From: Actinobacteria bacterium IMCC26207
Lineage (GTDB): Bacteria > Actinomycetota > Acidimicrobiia > Acidimicrobiales > Microtrichaceae
Assembly (NCBI GenBank): GCA_001025035.1
Contig: LCZK01000008.1
Location: forward strand, 1-64,000
Direction of reading: 5' to 3'
DNA length: 64,000 nt
The translations under genes and the position numbers were made by a program. Below the pieces are notes generated by a model that searched no databases, was not told the origin of the DNA, and saw only the letters and a list, made by a program, of their open reading frames with translations. Shown here in pieces: positions 50,334 to 63,450 of this stretch (position 1 is the stretch's first letter; every line of letters begins with the position of its first letter).

Positions 50334-50355
50334 CCGCTCCACCCTTGGGGCTTAC

Positions 50356-50406
50356 GCGTCTGGAGCGGTTTTTCGACAGTATGTGTCGAAAAACCGCTCC
50401 AGACGC
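50356..50406. terminator. Long hairpin element, copy 1
   Basis: Perfect 23-bp arms around loop GTATG. The 35-bp core AGCGGTTTTTCGACA-GTATG-TGTCGAAAAACCGCT is identical in four copies. It lies in the 73-bp gap between two convergent stop codons, so it can act as a bidirectional terminator. The A/T runs lie inside the stem rather than after it, unlike a textbook terminator. Confidence 0.8.
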
Positions 50407-51966
50407 TCAGGTCACGCAGTTCAGAACGACGCTACTACCCGCGTTGCCTTCAGAATCGGTGGCCGTCGCTATGAGTGAGAACGTTTGCGATGGGTCATTG
50501 GGGCTGACGGTCGGGAACGTTGCTTTCCATGAACTGCTACTCCCAAACATTGAGGTTGAGCCTGAGCGACCAAACGTGCTCGTCCAGCTGAGGGTGACAG
50601 TCACCACGGTGGCAGCGCTTGTCACTCTGGCCACATAGACCTGATTACTACAACCAGTCAGAGCCCCAGAAAGCGTGACTTGGGGTGGCAGCACTGGCGG
50701 TGAAGTTGTCGGAGCTGCAGTAGTCGGAACTGCAGTTGCAGGAGGTGCAGTAGTCGGAACTGCGGTAACTGGAGGTGCAGTAACTGCTGAGGTCACCGTT
50801 GATGTGGTCGACTCGAGAATACTCACACCTCCCGCATCCAACATCGATGTTGTTGTCTGCACAGAACCCAACGAGGTATCCACCCTCGGCCAGAACAACA
50901 CAAACCCAGATCCGTCCGCATCTGGATCCCTCAAGTCGCTCGAAGCGCCCTCTGAACGAACAGCCGTGTCTGGTGGATCCAACAACACCGAACCACCTAG
51001 AACCAGCAACAACACAACAAGCACCGCGAGCCCCACAACGAGCGCCCGGCGTCGAGCAGCACCATCCGCTGGCGGGAAACCATCCCCCCGCCATGGCCGC
51101 CCACCCGCATGTGAACCACCCGCACCCGCTGCGGCACTGGCAAGGACACGCTTGCGAACCGAAATCGGAACCCCCAGCAACGGCGACGCACCCGCAACAC
51201 CAGACAGTACAAACGCAGGCACCTTCTTTCGCGACTGTTCACACACCTCACAAGAATCAACATGGCGATTCACCCGCTTACGCCACAGAACCGAAAACTC
51301 GCCATCCCAACTAGCCAAGACAGCAGCGAGTTCCTCGCAATCAGCTTGACCCCTACTGGCAATCAGCAAGGCCCCCAATGACTGGCCCACACGCTCCTTC
51401 ATCCGGAACGTCGCTAGGTGAGCCTTGCTTGGCGACACACCTAGTGCGCTTGCTAGGTCAGCGCCATCAATTCCCTGCAACACCAGTTCCAGCACCAGGC
51501 GATCACTGCTCTCTAACCCGGCCGAGGCCTGAGCAATTAGCTGTGCCAGCTCGGCCTGTTCCGCCGAGGCCTCAACTGATACCTCAACGATCGTCGACGA
51601 GGCATCAGCTGTGCGTAACGCTTCAAAGTCAGACATCTCAGATACCTCCTCACTCGCAACGGTGCGAGAGCCACGCCGGGTTTTCAAATACACCTGCCGG
51701 CGAGCAATAGCGAACAACCAAGGCTTCAAACGAGACGGATCACGAAGCTGACCCATGCGCTCAACCGCAACCAGAAACACATCACCGCACACATCCTCAG
51801 CCGCAGAACGATCAGCCAACATATGCGCACACATCGTGTACACCCGACTTGCGTAACGGTCATAGATCTCTGCCAGAGCCTGCTGATCACCCGCACAAAA
51901 ACGGCGCACTAATTCGGCGTCCTCAGCCGCAGCCTTCGTTGTACTCGCTTCTTGCTCAGCAGTCAT
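50407..51966 (-). CDS. Membrane-tethered ECF sigma factor with zinc-finger and Ig-like ectodomain (paralogue 1)
   Basis: One 519-residue chain. Residues 20-100 are sigma region 2 (LAEIYDRYASRVYTMCAHML, SRLKPWLFAIARRQVYLKTR). Residues 138-200 are region 4 with helix-turn-helix GADLASALGVSPSKAHLATF. Residues 210-245 hold C-x24-H-x3-C-x2-C (HVDSCEVC), as in zinc-finger anti-sigma proteins. Residues 308-329 are one membrane helix. A Thr/Pro/Ala stalk (390-428) leads to an Ig-like beta domain (430-519) with two cysteines. Sigma and anti-sigma/sensor parts are thus joined, so release probably needs proteolysis. AGGGAG lies 8 bp before ATG. Paralogue at 54873. Confidence 0.85.
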   Translation of the reverse strand: MTAEQEASTTKAAAEDAELVRRFCAGDQQALAEIYDRYASRVYTMCAHMLADRSAAEDVCGDVFLVAVERMGQLRDPSRLKPWLFAIARRQVYLKTRRGSRTVASEEVSEMSDFEALRTADASSTIVEVSVEASAEQAELAQLIAQASAGLESSDRLVLELVLQGIDGADLASALGVSPSKAHLATFRMKERVGQSLGALLIASRGQADCEELAAVLASWDGEFSVLWRKRVNRHVDSCEVCEQSRKKVPAFVLSGVAGASPLLGVPISVRKRVLASAAAGAGGSHAGGRPWRGDGFPPADGAARRRALVVGLAVLVVLLLVLGGSVLLDPPDTAVRSEGASSDLRDPDADGSGFVLFWPRVDTSLGSVQTTTSMLDAGGVSILESTTSTVTSAVTAPPVTAVPTTAPPATAVPTTAAPTTSPPVLPPQVTLSGALTGCSNQVYVARVTSAATVVTVTLSWTSTFGRSGSTSMFGSSSSWKATFPTVSPNDPSQTFSLIATATDSEGNAGSSVVLNCVT

Positions 51967-52016
51967 CTCACAAACTCCCTGCGCCCAACGCTAGACCAAC
52001 GGCGCTTTTCCCGAAC

Positions 52017-52067
52017 GCGCCTGCAGCGGTTTTTCGACAGTATGTGTCGAAAAACCGCTCAGGACGC
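52017..52067. terminator. Long hairpin element, copy 2
   Basis: Core 52025-52059 identical to copy 1; outer arm positions differ. It lies between the end of surface protein A and the start of sigma paralogue 1, both on the minus strand, so it separates two transcription units. Confidence 0.8.
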
Positions 52068-53034: not shown

Positions 53035-53799
53035 ATGAAACACACCGTTCGAGTTCTGCTGCTTCTGGCAGTAACAACACTTGGGTTGTCGGCCCTCAGC
53101 GGATCAGCCTCCGCTACGACCTCGACGCCAAGGGCCATTGTGCCAAGTACTACCTGCTCAGGCAGTTTGGTGAGCATCGTGCTCAACGGACCAGGGGGCA
53201 GCAGCACCGCACCAACAGGATCGACAGTCGAAGTCCGGGGAAGGATCATCATGGCACCCGGTGCTGATCTTGGTCTGGGTGTAGATGAGTCAATCAGCAA
53301 CGTCATCGATTCAATCACCGCATCCCTAAATGGCGGCGCCGGGGTTGATGCCGAGGGCGAGGGCGGGTCGATCAGGGCCAGCCTGTCACCAATACAAACG
53401 GGAGAAAACACAATCACGGTGAAAGTCGACATCGACACAGGAGACGACGAAGAGGAACTTACCTGCAAGTTCAAGGTGACTGGGGTGAGTGAGACTCCCA
53501 CGACAACGCTTGTTCCCGTTGATGATGCCGCCACTGCCCCCACTGCAGACGTTTCCACTACAACCGTTCCGACCGCTACAACAGTTCCGGCTGCTGGCGC
53601 AGTTCCGACCGCTGCGGCCTCGGTGCAAGGTGCCTCTGCAACTTCCTCTGCCGCAACTCCTGCTGCGAGTCCGCAGAGCGAACTCGCATTCACCGGAAAG
53701 AGTTCCGTACCTCTCGGGCTACTCGGCTTAGCACTCGCACTACTCGGCGCTGGACTCCTGATGATCGAGCGTAAGCAACGAGTGAAGCAAGCGGCCTAG
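53035..53799 (+). CDS. LAFTG-anchored surface protein D
   Basis: A 254-residue protein on the opposite strand from its relatives. It has signal peptide VRVLLLLAVTTLGLSALSGSASA, then a beta-rich domain with one cysteine pair (STTCSGSLVSIVLNG to ELTCKFKVTG) rather than the Cys-module of A and B. A Thr/Ala/Pro stalk follows, and the end is SELAFTGKSS, a helix and MIERKQRVKQ. ATG 53035 (MKHTVRV) follows ATGGAGTGATC. The globular domain could bind a ligand. It shares only the anchor plan with A-C. Confidence 0.8.
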   Translation: MKHTVRVLLLLAVTTLGLSALSGSASATTSTPRAIVPSTTCSGSLVSIVLNGPGGSSTAPTGSTVEVRGRIIMAPGADLGLGVDESISNVIDSITASLNGGAGVDAEGEGGSIRASLSPIQTGENTITVKVDIDTGDDEEELTCKFKVTGVSETPTTTLVPVDDAATAPTADVSTTTVPTATTVPAAGAVPTAAASVQGASATSSAATPAASPQSELAFTGKSSVPLGLLGLALALLGAGLLMIERKQRVKQAA

Positions 53800-53813
53800 A
53801 TAGCTAGCGAGGC

Positions 53814-53864
53814 GCGTCCGGAGCGGTTTTTCGACAGTATGTGTCGAAAAACCGCTCCAAACGC
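53814..53864. terminator. Long hairpin element, copy 3
   Basis: Core 53822-53856 identical to the other copies. It fills the gap between the convergent ends of surface proteins D and B, fitting a bidirectional terminator. Confidence 0.8.
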
Positions 53865-54872: not shown

Positions 54873-56438
54873 TCAGCGCGTGCAGTTGAGCACTGCGCTG
54901 CTACCGGTGTTACCGGCGAGGTCTGTGGCTACAGCCACAAATCCGAAGCTGGTTGCAGTGGGCTGGGTCGAAGGATTGAATGATGCAACCCAGGTACTCC
55001 CAGCTCCTGACATGGGTACTGACCCCGAGGTTGCAACGTCACTAGTCCAATTGAGACTCACCGATGCAACCCCGACTGCGGAACTCACCGTTGCTGTATA
55101 TGGCGTGTCGCAACCGCTAGTGAACCCACTGAGTGAAACCTGGGGTGGCAGCGCTGGCGGTGCAGTGGTCGGAGCTGCTGTAGGCGGCACTGCGGTAGGC
55201 GGCACTGCTGTTGCAGGCGGTGCTGTTGCAGGCGGTGCGGTAATCGGAGGTGCAGTGACTGCTGAGGCAACCGTTGATGTGGTCGACTCGGGAATACTCA
55301 CACCTCCCGCATCCAACATCGATGTTGTTGTCTGCACAGAACCCAACGAGGTATCGACACGAGGCCAGAACAACACAAACCCAGACTCGTCCGCATCTGG
55401 ATCCCTCAATTCGCTCGAAGCACCCTCTGAACGAACAGCCGTGTCACCTGAATCCAACAACACCGAACCACCAAGAACCAACAACAACACAACAAGCACC
55501 GCGAGCCCCACAACGAGCGCCCGGCGTCGAGCAGCACCATCCGCTGGCGGGAAACCATCCCCACGCCATGGCCGCCCACCCACTGTGTTCCCAGCACTTG
55601 CAGTAGCACCCACTCCAGCACTTGCAAGAACACGTTTGCGAACCGAAATCGGAACCCCCAGCAACGGCGACGCACCCGCAACACCAGACAACACAAACGC
55701 AGGCACCTTCTTGCGCGAACGCTCACACACCTCACAAGAATCAACATGGCGATTCACCCGCTTACGCCACAACACAGAAAACTCACCATCCCAACTAGCC
55801 AACACAGCAGCGAGTTCCGGGCAATCCGCTTGACCCCGACTAGCAATGAGCAACGCCCCCAACGACTGGCCCACACGCTCCTTCATCCGGTGTGAGGCCT
55901 GGTGTGCGTTATTCGCCGAAACTCCCAGAGTGCTTGCCAAGTCAGCGCCATCAATTCCCTGCAACACCAGTTCCAGCACCAGGCGGTCACTGCTCTCCAA
56001 CCCAGCGGCAGCTTGAGCAATCAACTGCGCCAACTCAGCCTGCTCCGCCGAGGCCTCAACCATCGTCGAAGAGGAATCAGCTGTGCGTAACGCTTCAGAA
56101 TCAGACATCTCAGATACCTCCTCTACAAGAACTGATCGAGACTCACGGCGGGTTTTCAAATACACCTGCCGGCGAGCAATAGCGAACAACCAAGGCTTCA
56201 AACGAGACGGATCACGAAGCTGTCCAAGGCGCTCAACCGCAACAAGAAACACATCACCGCACACATCCTCAGCCGCTGAACGATCAGCCAACATATGCGC
56301 ACACATCGTGTACACCCGACTTGCGTAACGGTCATAGATCTCTGCCAGAGCCTGCTGATCACCCGCACAAAAACGGCGCACTAACTCGGCGTCCTCAGCC
56401 GAACCCACCGTTGTGCTTGTTACTTGCTCAGCAGCCAT
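54873..56438 (-). CDS. Membrane-tethered ECF sigma factor with zinc-finger and Ig-like ectodomain (paralogue 2)
   Basis: A 521-residue paralogue of the protein at 50407. The sigma regions, HVDSCEVC finger and membrane helix (RRRALVVGLAVLVVLLLVLG) are almost identical. The recognition helix differs slightly (GVSANNAHQASH against GVSPSKAHLATF), which could alter promoter choice. The stalk (APPATAVPPTAVPPTAAP) and the Ig-like domain have diverged most (GFTSGCDTPYTATVSSAVG), so signal recognition may differ. The leader next to the ATG is shared with paralogue 1. Surface protein B follows about 180 bp downstream on the same strand. Confidence 0.85.
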   Translation of the reverse strand: MAAEQVTSTTVGSAEDAELVRRFCAGDQQALAEIYDRYASRVYTMCAHMLADRSAAEDVCGDVFLVAVERLGQLRDPSRLKPWLFAIARRQVYLKTRRESRSVLVEEVSEMSDSEALRTADSSSTMVEASAEQAELAQLIAQAAAGLESSDRLVLELVLQGIDGADLASTLGVSANNAHQASHRMKERVGQSLGALLIASRGQADCPELAAVLASWDGEFSVLWRKRVNRHVDSCEVCERSRKKVPAFVLSGVAGASPLLGVPISVRKRVLASAGVGATASAGNTVGGRPWRGDGFPPADGAARRRALVVGLAVLVVLLLVLGGSVLLDSGDTAVRSEGASSELRDPDADESGFVLFWPRVDTSLGSVQTTTSMLDAGGVSIPESTTSTVASAVTAPPITAPPATAPPATAVPPTAVPPTAAPTTAPPALPPQVSLSGFTSGCDTPYTATVSSAVGVASVSLNWTSDVATSGSVPMSGAGSTWVASFNPSTQPTATSFGFVAVATDLAGNTGSSAVLNCTR

Positions 56439-57710: not shown

Positions 57711-57766
57711 TCTCTTCAGATTCCTGGTGGCAGCGGACAGCTATGAGCGCTGCGCTGTTCCCGAAC

Positions 57767-57817
57767 GCGTCTGGAGCGGTTTTTCGACAGTATGTGTCGA
57801 AAAACCGCTGCAGACGC
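57767..57817. terminator. Long hairpin element, copy 4
   Basis: Core 57775-57809 identical to the other copies. It lies downstream of the stop codon of the minus-strand gene remnant at 57843-58007 and upstream of surface gene C. Confidence 0.8.
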
Positions 57818-57842: not shown

Positions 57843-58007
57843 TCAACGCCGGGGATAGGTATTGATTGCGGGGAACTGCCCTTCCGTAGTCAGTACAAGG
57901 TCCCGACCGTTCTGCTGAAACGCAGCGGCCTCGCCCTGAGACTCAGGTTGAATCTGAACCGAACAGGGCGGTGCAGTAAATGCGCCCGAGATGCTGTTGA
58001 CCTCGCC
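57843..58007 (-). pseudogene. 3' remnant of a beta-propeller-type lipoprotein gene
   Basis: Reads in frame GEVNSISGAFTAPPCSVQI and on to TEGQFPAINTYPRR, then stop; the last 37 codons are DNA-identical to the end of the gene at 62422-63450. An in-frame stop sits just upstream at 58008 and further similarity is lost. It is therefore a broken duplicate of the tail of that gene, ending about 320 bp before the permease-channel gene. Confidence 0.8.
57862..57971. repeat. 110-bp direct repeat, left copy
   Basis: Identical over 110 bp to 62441-62550 in the same orientation, with weaker similarity for some 20 bp on each side. The two copies bracket 4.5 kb holding the permease-channel gene. Confidence 0.95.
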
Positions 58008-58296: not shown

Positions 58297-58329
58297 ATGC
58301 AGAAACGTTCGATTAGCGGTGCGCAATGA
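58297..58329 (+). CDS. Possible 10-codon leader peptide
   Basis: ATG at 58297 lies behind GGGGAGGGGATGAGGC and reads MQKRSISGAQ, then stop. Its TGA overlaps the ATG of the 1301-residue gene, which lacks its own ribosome site. This suggests translational coupling through a short leader. Confidence 0.35.
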   Translation: MQKRSISGAQ

Positions 58330-61300
58330 CTCCTGTTCAGGAAAACTTGGATGAGGGCGAGCTGACCACCAGATCACGCCAACCGATGGCCTACCTGTGG
58401 CCGGCACTTGCGCTGCTGGTACCAACCGCCTGCTACCTGAACTCCAACGGGAATGGTTTTCTCTATTTCCTAACAGGGGCTCTCCTGATGGTTCTCGCCA
58501 TCGCTGGACAGGGCCGAATGAATTGGGAACGATCTCTGGAGAACAGGACTCCGTTCGGGCGAGAAGCCTGGCTCCCCTTAAGCTACCTAGTGCTAGGGGC
58601 TCTGCTTGGCGTCTTCACGTCAAGAATGATCGCAGATGCTTTCTTCGGAAAGATCGGCATCATTTTATTCATTCTGGCGTTCTCCCTAGCGTCTGAGGGA
58701 ATCAGCCGGTCCGGCCTATTTACTTACCTCGCGTACCGAATCTCAGAGAACGCTAACGGATCTACACCTCGCCTCATTCTTTACCTTTTCCTCTTAGCCT
58801 CGTTCCTCACCGCTGTGACATCGAACGACATTGTGGTATTAGCGCTCACACCCATCGTTATGTCTGTTTGTGCACAAGCAAAAATAAAGAATCCAATCCT
58901 TATTCTTCTCTCCACATTTGTAGCAGCAAACACATTCTCGATGCTTCTGCTGATTGGTTCACCCACAAATATCATCATTTCAGAAGCTATAGGGCTCAAT
59001 GCTTTCACCTATTCCTTACTCATGATTGCTCCGGCACTACTTGCATTCCTTCTCACTTTCATCGTCATTTCAAAGGTCCTTGACCAGACCGAGAAGCGAG
59101 CGAATCTGACGCCAGTTGAAAGCGAAGACGTTTCCCTCAGAGAGAAATTCGGACTGATCCTACAAAGACGGGCAGTCCCAAGCAGTTGGACCATTCAGAA
59201 AACCTACGACATTCCTCGCTTCTCAACGTCTGAATCGATTACGCGGGAGATGAAGGAATGGGTCTGGCTCTTTGCATTGTCGGTCCTCGCTCTGTCAATT
59301 GTCTCCTTCAGAGAGGCGAGTTTAATCTGGTGCGCGACACCAATAGCGGTCGCCGCACTTGTCCTGAGTTCACGGCACCGGCGCAGGGAGGATGGCGACG
59401 AGACTCAACCCCTCACCGTGACACAGGAAATCCGAGCTGCTGGTGACATGCTTCGGGAAGTTCCCTGGGGGCTTCTATTTTTCGGAATTACCTTCTTCGT
59501 CGTTGCATCAGCCTTCGCCTCAACGGAATACTTTCAGACTGAAATCATTCATGCGGTGGGGAGTCTCATCTCCCACGGAGGGCCGTTCTCCATCGCGGCG
59601 GCCATAGTAGGTACGGCGACCGTTGTGAGCCTCTTCAATGACCTGCCAGCAGCAGCGTTATGTGGAGAGACTCTCCAGCAGCTCGATTTTGTGAACCCAT
59701 TCAACAGAGCGATGGCCACGGCGGGGATCTTGGTGGGTCTCAATATCGGGACCTACCTGTTCCCAACCGGAGCTCTTGCAGGACTCCTCTGGTTTCGGGT
59801 CATGCGGAAAGAGAGAGACAAGCTTGGGTCTGAAACTGACTCGGAATTTCTTCTTAATATACCGGCTAGATCTGACCTGATTCGATTTGGGTTTCTGGTC
59901 TTCATACCGGTCACCATCATCCTGAGTCTCTGTCTATTTGGAATAGTCGGAGCATTCTCATTCCTGCTCAGCAGTTGGACGGAACACTCACTGTTACTAA
60001 CTTCGCCTCTTAGTGCATGTATTTCACTGATTGGGCTTCTGATGTGCATCCTCACGGTTCGAGGATTCAGTACGGAACTCAAGAAGCGTGATATTTTCCT
60101 AAAACACTTTACACAGCTACTAACATTTCTAGACCGATCATATGAATGGTCAATGAAACACAGGGTCGCTTATATTCTTGCAATCTCGGGTGCCTTATTG
60201 GCGACTTCAGCCGTAATTTTATACTGGGTAGAGCGAGCACACAGCATTCTCTACACGCCCAATGAACAGACCTACTCATCCCCAAAACAGTTCGTTACTT
60301 GGCTAAGCACGATTTCTACGAGTGGATTTGATGACACATTTTTTCCTAACTCACTAGCCGGAGCCATGTTCGTAGGTCTTCTTCCGGTTGTAGGCGTGGC
60401 GCTTATCATCCAGTTGGTTAGAACTCCGGGCGGTGTCTATAGGGAAAAGTTGAGATCCAGAATTGCTAAGGGTGATGCTCTTTCCCATCGGACATTTATT
60501 ATTGGAAACTACCTCAGGGACAGGCAACTTATTGGCCTAATACATGATAGTTCAGACCGATTTATCGTCCTGCTCGATAGGTCGTCCGGCCACATCAAGA
60601 TGCCGGACAAGGAAGACGACACGGCAGATCGCCTTCACATCGTTGAAGGTAGGAACCTCCAAGCCGAGGAGATCGTGGCAAATTTCTCCCTTCTTGCGAC
60701 AAGTGAGATCTTGATCCTCGCTGATCCATCCGAGGATGCCGATCTGGAGAACCTTCTACTGCTCAAGGCGCTCAGCAATTCGATTCAGGCACAGCACCCG
60801 CAAATTCAGCGAATTCCGAATGTTCTCATCGAATGGTCTCGCCCTGAGATGGAAGAGAACCTTTCGGAATATCTAGATCCGCTAGTCATGGAGCGTCTGG
60901 GGAGCATTAGCGCTGCTGGGTCAGTTGGCGAGTGGGCTGCCGCTGAGATGGTCTCTCAGAGTGTCCTGACGGAGCGGCTCTGCGGAATCGGACCCCTGAC
61001 GGGAGATCCGGTGCCCGAACATTCAGCCTGGATTGACAGCAGAAGTTTCGCTGAGCGGGGATTCCGTTCGATTCCCCTTTCTGGGAAGCTAGCTGTGGGT
61101 TCTGGATCCCTGCTGAGTTCCGAACCAAAGTCCGCCCGGGAAAAGAAGGTGAAGTGGATTGCTGCGGCCTCTTCGGCAGCAGAAGTCAACCCATTCCTAG
61201 TGGTGGGACTCGGCCTTGAAATCGGGGGCACCGAAGTGGGACTTGGTTGCTCTGACCCTGGCTTTCTCAAGCGCTCAGCCTCGGCAAATTCACTTCTGGT

Positions 61301-62231
61301 TCTTGAGCAGCGCGAGTCAGCGCCCGCCCTAGCCGCAGAGACTGCTTCCCTAGGAGCCATACGAGTACATGTCGTCGGATATACCCAGACGGCCCGCGCT
61401 GCCATTGCGGCGCTGCGGAAACTTGAAGCTTCGGGGGTGACGCCCCAGATTGAAATCATTGCTCACGACACCAGAACGCCACGTCCCGAACCACAAGTTG
61501 CAGATCGAGTCCGTTTCGCCTTGCATGATGGCGAGAGTGAAATGGCAAGGGCTCTGACCAGTGCGTTCTCTCCGACCCAGGGCGAGTTGGACCTCCGCCC
61601 AGGTGACCGCCTCTTCATCTTCTCACCCGATGGCGAAGTACGACAGGCTGGGTTGTACAGCGCCAAGTTCGCCGGAAAGGTTCTGGAGGGATTGCGATCT
61701 AACGAGGGGTCAATAAGCGGTGCCGACCCGACCAATCACGCCTGCACCTCAAGCGAGATCCTGATCGCGGTCGAGTCAGCAGACCCATCGACGCGCTTCA
61801 TGCTGGAACACCTACAGGTGGACAAGATTCTCGACACGGGCAATATCCGTGCGTCTTGGCTAGCGAGGTGGACAGACATCTACTTCAAGGTGCCGTTGGA
61901 ACGAGCCAAGGATCTCGGCATCGTTGCGCCCAGTCAGAACTCGGCGTCAGATTTCCGCGATTCGATTGCCTATTCAAATCGTTTTCAATTCTTCTCAATT
62001 GTTCCGGCTAGTGAGCCCATTAGCGGAGTAGGTGTCACCGCCAGCAGAAAGTTTAGCGAAGTCGTCATATCGGTTCGCGAGAACTCGAGTCAATCGCAAC
62101 AACTACTTGGGATTGTGAGCCACAACCCGTCGAGTGGCACTCCGAGCGACGGGCATACGGCTCGAGTTGTCTGCGATCCCGACTATGTCATCACCGACAC
62201 AGACCGGTTGCTGCTAACCAGCATTCTCTAG
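58326..62231 (+). CDS. Permease-channel-RCK fusion protein
   Basis: A 1301-residue chimera. Residues about 20-500 look like a complete ArsB/NhaD-type ion transporter with about eleven helices: TSNDIVVLALTPIV and GSPTNIIISE in the first half, SLFNDLPAAALCG and GLNIGTYLFPTGALAGLLW in the second. Residues 520-600 add helices. Residues 614-697 look like a two-helix channel with pore loop FVTWLSTISTSGFDD, close to the TxGxGD filter. Residues about 715-900 and 1010-1150 resemble RCK/CASTOR-type nucleotide-binding domains (HRTFIIGNYL, IRVHVVGYTQTARAAI). Cation or anion specificity is unknown. Codon choice looks more AT-rich than neighbours, and flanking 110-bp repeats suggest insertion. No ribosome site of its own. 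Confidence 0.8.
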   Translation: MTPVQENLDEGELTTRSRQPMAYLWPALALLVPTACYLNSNGNGFLYFLTGALLMVLAIAGQGRMNWERSLENRTPFGREAWLPLSYLVLGALLGVFTSRMIADAFFGKIGIILFILAFSLASEGISRSGLFTYLAYRISENANGSTPRLILYLFLLASFLTAVTSNDIVVLALTPIVMSVCAQAKIKNPILILLSTFVAANTFSMLLLIGSPTNIIISEAIGLNAFTYSLLMIAPALLAFLLTFIVISKVLDQTEKRANLTPVESEDVSLREKFGLILQRRAVPSSWTIQKTYDIPRFSTSESITREMKEWVWLFALSVLALSIVSFREASLIWCATPIAVAALVLSSRHRRREDGDETQPLTVTQEIRAAGDMLREVPWGLLFFGITFFVVASAFASTEYFQTEIIHAVGSLISHGGPFSIAAAIVGTATVVSLFNDLPAAALCGETLQQLDFVNPFNRAMATAGILVGLNIGTYLFPTGALAGLLWFRVMRKERDKLGSETDSEFLLNIPARSDLIRFGFLVFIPVTIILSLCLFGIVGAFSFLLSSWTEHSLLLTSPLSACISLIGLLMCILTVRGFSTELKKRDIFLKHFTQLLTFLDRSYEWSMKHRVAYILAISGALLATSAVILYWVERAHSILYTPNEQTYSSPKQFVTWLSTISTSGFDDTFFPNSLAGAMFVGLLPVVGVALIIQLVRTPGGVYREKLRSRIAKGDALSHRTFIIGNYLRDRQLIGLIHDSSDRFIVLLDRSSGHIKMPDKEDDTADRLHIVEGRNLQAEEIVANFSLLATSEILILADPSEDADLENLLLLKALSNSIQAQHPQIQRIPNVLIEWSRPEMEENLSEYLDPLVMERLGSISAAGSVGEWAAAEMVSQSVLTERLCGIGPLTGDPVPEHSAWIDSRSFAERGFRSIPLSGKLAVGSGSLLSSEPKSAREKKVKWIAAASSAAEVNPFLVVGLGLEIGGTEVGLGCSDPGFLKRSASANSLLVLEQRESAPALAAETASLGAIRVHVVGYTQTARAAIAALRKLEASGVTPQIEIIAHDTRTPRPEPQVADRVRFALHDGESEMARALTSAFSPTQGELDLRPGDRLFIFSPDGEVRQAGLYSAKFAGKVLEGLRSNEGSISGADPTNHACTSSEILIAVESADPSTRFMLEHLQVDKILDTGNIRASWLARWTDIYFKVPLERAKDLGIVAPSQNSASDFRDSIAYSNRFQFFSIVPASEPISGVGVTASRKFSEVVISVRENSSQSQQLLGIVSHNPSSGTPSDGHTARVVCDPDYVITDTDRLLLTSIL

Positions 62232-62421: not shown

Positions 62422-63450
62422 TCAGCTGGCGACATAGGTGTTGATTGCGGGGAACTGCCCTTCCGTAGTCAGTACAAGGTCCCGACCGTTCTGCTGAAAC
62501 GCAGCGGCCTCGCCCTGAGACTCAGGTTGAATCTGAACCGAACAGGGCGGAGCGGTAAATGCGTCCGAGATGCTCTCACCCGTCAAGCGTGGCCAGAGAT
62601 ACACGCGGTTATAGGTGCGAAGCATGATGTTGGCGCCGTCGGGCGAGATATCACCGCCGGTGACCGATCGGTCGAACCCCATTGGCAGTTCAAGGGAGGC
62701 CACCTCACGAAGAGTCTGGGGCGATCCAGAGGCGGCCTGAGCAGCGGGAAGCTGGTACACAATGCTGTTGGCCTCGCCGCTCTTGGTCACCACATAGATG
62801 TCGGCTGATAGTGGGTCAACGAGAAGCGCCTCTGCGTCCCAAGCCAAGCCATCGGGATACATAACGTCAATCCGCTCAGCGGGTACGGAACCCCGAATGC
62901 CAGTTGCACCCGGCAAGATCCCCGGCTCGACTGCACGATAGATCGACAGGTTGGAGCGGCCCTTATTGCCACCAATATCTCCGAGGTACAGGTAGCTGGT
63001 TCCTGACTCCGGTCCAGGGCCAACGGCGATGTCCTCCCAATCTCGTGCCTGCGCTCCGTCAATTTGGAATCTTCCGATCGCAGCGCCGGAAAGATCGGTC
63101 GCGAACACTCTGGCGCTATCGCCCGAATCGTTGTGAACCCAATAAATGCCCGGGTTGGTTCGCGATGCTGCAATGCCGGAGGCCTCGGTGATGGCTGGGT
63201 CCTGCAGAGTGCCGGTCTGAACTGCTGCACCGAACAGTGGGCAGGTCCGCAGCGTGGAGCTCGGCGCTGTAGTGGTGGTTCTCAGACTGCTTACCGTGGT
63301 GGGCGAGATCGTTGGCGGGGCCGAACTCGTACTTGAGCTTGCCTGATTCGAGGTATTGGCAGAATTCGACTGCTGGCAACCGACTAAAGCCACTAGTCCA
63401 AGAAGTCCTAGGGCCGCTGCAGATTTCAAGAAGGCAACTCGCGGCAGCAC
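62422..63450 (-). CDS. Lipoprotein with beta-propeller-like repeats
   Basis: A 342-residue lipoprotein: LGLLGLVALVGC is followed by QQSNS and a Ser/Thr linker. The body has propeller-like blades: EASGIAASRTNPGIYWVHND, ARDWEDIAVGPGPESG, YLYLGDIGGNKGRSNLSIYR, DAEALLVDPLSADIYVVTKS and GGDISPDGANIMLRTYNRVY. This pattern is common in exported proteins of unknown role. Start is GTG 63450. The last 110 bp of the coding region (62441-62550) are repeated at 57862. Confidence 0.8.
   Translation of the reverse strand: MLPRVAFLKSAAALGLLGLVALVGCQQSNSANTSNQASSSTSSAPPTISPTTVSSLRTTTTAPSSTLRTCPLFGAAVQTGTLQDPAITEASGIAASRTNPGIYWVHNDSGDSARVFATDLSGAAIGRFQIDGAQARDWEDIAVGPGPESGTSYLYLGDIGGNKGRSNLSIYRAVEPGILPGATGIRGSVPAERIDVMYPDGLAWDAEALLVDPLSADIYVVTKSGEANSIVYQLPAAQAASGSPQTLREVASLELPMGFDRSVTGGDISPDGANIMLRTYNRVYLWPRLTGESISDAFTAPPCSVQIQPESQGEAAAFQQNGRDLVLTTEGQFPAINTYVAS
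62441..62550. repeat. 110-bp direct repeat, right copy
   Basis: Identical to 57862-57971. Here it belongs to the intact reading frame of the lipoprotein gene, so this copy is probably the original. Confidence 0.95.

Follow-up and report, generated by a model that had tools for sequence, protein, structure and literature searches.

A single open reading frame in the 64,000-nt stretch analysed here (the window; positions 1 to 64,000 of contig LCZK01000008.1, Actinobacteria bacterium IMCC26207, GCA_001025035.1) encodes a chain that we regard, with slightly better than even confidence, as a real fusion of a full-length secondary carrier, a K+-channel-superfamily pore whose filter is altered and two diverged RCK-like domains (Table 1). 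The frame runs from an ATG at 58326 to a stop at 62231 with no internal stop codon, and the coordinates and the 1301-residue length given in an earlier sequence-only reading of this DNA proved exact. The gene does not start further 5′, since a stop codon closes the frame immediately before the ATG. The motifs named in that reading were all located in the chain: TSNDIVVLALTP at residues 165-176, GSPTNIII at 211-218, FNDLP at 437-441 and STISTSGFDD at 661-670. The gene has a G+C content of 52.7% (57.0% for the window) and its product occurs once in its own genome. A possible short leader frame with a strong ribosome-binding sequence upstream was also noted; its TGA overlaps the fusion-gene ATG (ATGA), an arrangement in which translational coupling is possible.

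Table 1. Coordinates in the window of the fusion gene, its predicted parts and the flanking repeat.
Feature	Position	Strand	Basis or remark
Left copy of 141-bp direct repeat	57855..57995	.	97% identical to right copy; fragment of the 3′ end of gene 62422-63450(-)
Candidate 10-codon leader, MQKRSISGAQ	58297..58329	+	Speculative; AAGGGGAGGGG ahead; read from sequence
Fusion gene, 1301 aa	58326..62231	+	Single open frame; architecture repeated in a second genome
Carrier domain, CitMHS/ArsB type, ion transporter superfamily, residues ~1-545	58326..59960	+	Pfam; stand-alone relative L051
Extra hydrophobic helix, residues ~556-580	59991..60065	+	Hydropathy peak in both homologues
Pore module M1-P-M2 (putative), residues ~606-700	60141..60425	+	K+-channel profile; shuffles; natural background
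Predicted selectivity filter TSGFDD, residues 665-670	60318..60335	+	Alignments with homologue and K+ channels
RCK1-like alpha/beta domain (tentative), residues ~720-885, without nucleotide-binding glycines	60483..60980	+	Pattern, position after M2, profile score of 701-1301; weak
RCK2-like domain (probable) and C-terminal part, residues ~1012-1301 (VHVVG... VDKILDTGNIRAS)	61359..62228	+	Profile-profile alignment to TrkA_N/TrkA_C
Right copy of 141-bp direct repeat	62434..62574	.	Inside the 3′ end of gene 62422-63450(-)

For the N-terminal half, residues 89-448 matched the Pfam model CitMHS (PF03600) over most of the profile with 117.9 bits (cut-off 31.9, E 6.8e-34), and ArsB (PF02040) gave 55.3 bits on the carrier half (cut-off 22.2, E 9.6e-15); the carrier match is far above chance. 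In the PDB sequence search convincing matches were obtained for the carrier half alone, and the best match was a solved ArsB chain. Of the ArsB/NhaD-like permease proposed earlier, the ArsB part is borne out by the CitMHS and ArsB models, while the NhaD part was dropped, as no NhaD model matched. Because the NCBIfam arsenite-pump ArsB models stayed far below their cut-offs on the fusion protein (88 bits for a cut-off of 457, 59.5 for 760 and 56 for 415), we designate this half a CitMHS/ArsB-type carrier and name no substrate. Among stand-alone carriers, the nearest one seen (L051, 491 aa) aligned to residues 116-527 with 30% identity and ended soon after, which places the end of the carrier near residue 545; the last carrier helix spans residues ~515-542.

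Residues 546-1301 gave no match in Pfam, NCBIfam or PDB sequences, and the Pfam model Ion_trans_2 did not match the fusion protein. In the hydropathy plot, the carrier is followed by an extra helix at 556-580 and by a loop flanked by M1 and M2, beyond which this protein has no further membrane segment. A profile was built from 26 K+ channels found in related genomes. On it, residues 606-700 scored 18.9 bits, with M1, pore helix, filter and M2 all covered by a single alignment; the best of 1000 shuffles that kept the hydrophobic pattern reached 11.3 bits, and shuffle maxima overall were 11.3-11.5 bits. Against a natural background of 2271 ORFs from the loci at hand, the full-length fusion protein (14.9 bits) ranked just below the true K+-channel proteins; the ORFs ranked next, at 7.2 and 6.5 bits, were Trk/Ktr transporters, which belong to the same superfamily, and no other ORF exceeded 6.5 bits. 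By its sequence, the segment looks like an M1-P-M2 unit of the K+-channel superfamily. The corresponding segment of the homologue described below obtained 0.3 bits, that is, no score, so that the pore claim is drawn from one sequence and its homology with the other. The four M-P-M repeats per chain of Trk/Ktr/HKT proteins are absent, the fusion protein having one pore loop, and a Trk/Ktr repeat was rejected as the source of the pore, the repeat profiles giving 1.4 and -0.1 bits only.

In the alignment with K+ channels, TISTSGFDD of the fusion protein lies on TITTVGYGD. Residue for residue, T-V-G-Y-G-D of K+ channels corresponds to T-S-G-F-D-D in the fusion protein and to S-S-G-F-E-N in the homologue, an acid (D here, E in the homologue) replacing the second glycine. 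A TVGYG-type K+ filter is absent from both proteins (TSGFD here, SSGFE in the homologue), and we describe the filter type of the pair as (T/S)SGF(D/E)(D/N). The earlier term "K-channel-like pore loop" is apt for the layout, which the profile, the shuffles and the background favour, and not for the filter, which is not a K+ filter. NirBac and NaK are pores of the K+-channel superfamily made non-selective by an altered filter (PMC4607889, PMC9822992), that of NaK being TVGDGN (PMC9822992). Given the altered filter, analogy with these two channels suggests that the putative pore is probably not K+-selective. Another departure from TVGYGD was observed in three K+-channel-like proteins with TrkA_N (L125, L127 and L128), in which TVGF is followed by T/N-E.

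With plain HMMER the RCK profiles were not significant on the fusion protein, and Pfam TrkA_N did not match it. A profile-profile comparison of the stretch 701-1301 of both homologues with 27 TrkA_N sequences gave a score of 23.8, above all of 60 shuffles (mean 13.7, maximum 21.0). An RCK set taken from CASTOR-like channels scored 21.2 vs. a shuffle maximum of 20.4, and the score of the whole CASTOR profile was tied by one of 60 shuffles. The best TrkA_N/TrkA_C alignment extended from residue 1014 to ~1295; in it VHVVG falls on the first strand, and VDKILDTGNIRAS pairs with GADHVVNPLNIGA. From such alignments we judge an RCK fold probable in RCK2 and tentative in RCK1. The GxGxxG motif is absent from RCK1 of both homologues (IIGNYL/VVNCAV) and partial in RCK2 (VVGYTQ/VVGAGC). 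The two nucleotide-binding regions of the sequence-only reading are thus weakly upheld as RCK-like folds, but not as nucleotide binders, RCK1 being without the motif and RCK2 having part of it. AlphaFold, run on the protein's own sequence with no alignment, returned two low-confidence models (pLDDT 36 and 39).

A homologue built in the same order, which the earlier reading had proposed to look for, was found as a single chain in a genome of another family of the same order (G853, L050:4043-7438). It aligned with E 1.9e-125 and 37% identity over residues 8-819, the parts being in identical order, and the region beyond the carrier aligned independently (E 3e-21). Carrier, pore-like segment and RCK-like domains thus form one chain, as had been proposed, and the second genome agrees. 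Identity by part was 42% for the carrier, 34% for M1, 34% for pore loop and filter, 17% for M2, 23% for RCK1 and 27% for RCK2; F, TWL, SGF, the acid, FP and S..G are kept in the pore loop and filter of both proteins. No third fusion was detected in searches at the level of phylum, class, order and family (genomes numbered to ~G1088), of which the one over the class was run with just the channel half as query and another covered only genomes at least 94% complete; none was found in the family's 32 other genomes, which include incomplete ones. Searches of genome_contigs, viral_contigs and plasmids for relatives of the full protein or the channel half likewise gave no fusion, but these negatives are weak, as the peptide patterns used were few and poorly placed. 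The number of members known is two. Matches of the C-terminal half to L007 and L008 were discarded as chance; these ORFs are, as we take them, tyrosyl-tRNA synthetases.

The fusion gene sits between the two copies of the direct repeat, which are 4579 bp apart. In another genome of the same genus (G004; L108) the two flanks adjoin directly and only one copy of the repeat is present, i.e., the site is empty. The empty site and the bracketing 141-bp repeat indicate that the fusion gene was most likely inserted alone, and the simplest history would be a recent single-gene insertion in which the neighbour's end was duplicated; loss of the gene in G004 by recombination between the repeats is a conceivable alternative. 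The window also contains four palindrome copies around GAGCGGTTTTTCGACAGTATGTGTCGAAAAACCGCTC (50341-50406, 52002-52067, 53799-53864 and 57752-57817), perhaps a REP-like or terminator-like element. Also seen was a large direct duplication (50696-51870 and 55171-56342) with stretches 87-91% identical, at a distance of about 4.48 kb. Its second copy is located in 54873-56438(-), a gene with a Sigma70_r2 domain.

KefC-type antiporters are carriers regulated by RCK/KTN domains, and the fusion protein might likewise be an RCK-regulated carrier whose pore module has lost conduction and acts only in membrane anchoring and oligomerisation, bringing RCK-like sensors to the carrier. The filter matches no known conducting one, M2 is poorly conserved between the homologues (17%) and the carrier well (42%), and L052-L055, from the same taxonomic order, are carriers with inserts that by eye appear to be of TrkA-C type. 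Yet pore loop and filter (34%) are better kept than M2 or RCK1, and the retention of the pore-loop and filter residues listed above argues against a dead-pore anchor, since an anchor would not need them; we find this explanation, the main rival, less likely than the fusion with a cation pore. Were the carrier instead fused to a CASTOR/POLLUX-type (Ca2+-type) channel, the two RCK-like domains in series, the non-TVGYG filter, the two CASTOR-like channels elsewhere in the genome and the weak match of the CASTOR profile to both Rossmann-like parts would fit. However, that profile finds nothing in the pore, PF06241 misses the fusion protein yet finds two other proteins of the genome, and the CASTOR-like channels of these genomes have DPGTMGGD or a similar sequence as their filter. 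The CASTOR-like channels identified by their filter also score no more than 2.3 bits on the K+-channel profile vs. 14.9 bits for the fusion protein, and we consider this origin quite improbable. The CASTOR/POLLUX-like channels of the same genome are located at L021:966-3077(-) and L022:1141-3573(+), the latter with a borderline PF06241 match.

Two further explanations take up, in a wider form, the ways in which the sequence-only reading said it could fail. If the middle segment consisted of extra permease helices, or of unrelated membrane anchors, its likeness to a pore would be coincidental; the pore is indeed reported by no database model, and only one of the two homologues scores on the K+-channel profile. 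The 18.9-bit match as compared with shuffles and the natural-ORF background speak against it, as does the closest carrier relative, L051, which ends before the pore part and has no such helices there, so we rate coincidence as very unlikely. The other, two genes merged through sequencing or assembly error, was ruled out by the second genome, where the same chain order recurs at 37% identity; nothing was found in its favour, its probability is negligible and the fusion is not an artefact of merging.

Our preferred reading therefore remains the single-chain fusion of carrier, altered-filter pore and RCK-like domains. K+ channels form tetramers through their pore and RCK parts, and the fusion chains would most likely assemble via the same parts, four to a complex, which would put a rim of four carriers around the pore. 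Gating of the pore would come from a cytosolic ligand bound to the RCK-like ring. The carboxylates at the position of the second filter glycine may make the pore unselective for K+, so that mixed or divalent cations could pass. The pore could then furnish a flow of charge or of counter-cations next to carrier transport; alternatively, both might be gated by the ring. The coupling of exchange to a cation leak that the sequence-only reading proposed is speculative. A further proposal is possible but held only tentatively, namely that secondary carrier and gated cation channel both work within the one chain, that a single RCK-type ring governs the two and that the filter is of a new type.

Carriers and channels are usually regarded as separate classes, and literature searches of incomplete coverage turned up no description of a carrier fused with a pore module. 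Residues 1-545 are like CitMHS/ArsB carriers, above curated cut-offs, but the fusion protein has ~750 extra residues of channel-like and cytosolic character. With 2-TM K+ channels carrying RCK/KTN domains (MthK type, PF07885 + PF02254) it shares the order of M1-P-M2 followed by RCK-like domains; it differs from them in its filter (T/S-S-G-F-D/E-D/N), the lack of a Pfam match, the diverged RCKs and the N-terminal carrier. The likeness to NirBac and NaK is that of a K+-channel-superfamily pore with an altered filter, whereas the filter sequences differ and neither of the two has a carrier. CASTOR/POLLUX/DMI1 channels combine a non-TVGYG filter, an RCK ring and membrane helices ahead of the soluble part (PMC6697748). 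The fusion protein resembles them in its non-TVGYG filter and in the membrane helices before the soluble RCK-like part, but has a carrier, another filter and no PF06241 match. In SLC9C1, the sperm Na+/H+ exchanger carrying a voltage sensor and a CNBD (PMC6052114, PMC12332018), a carrier likewise bears channel-type modules at its C-terminal end; these are borrowed sensor modules, whereas the module borrowed here resembles the pore itself and is accompanied by RCK-like domains. A carrier-pore chain would permit a direct test of flux coupling between carrier and channel and would bring a new filter sequence into the K+-channel superfamily. RCK-regulated carriers and the carrier-sensor fusion SLC9C1 are already known; what seems new, in the literature covered, is the carrier together with a pore-like module.
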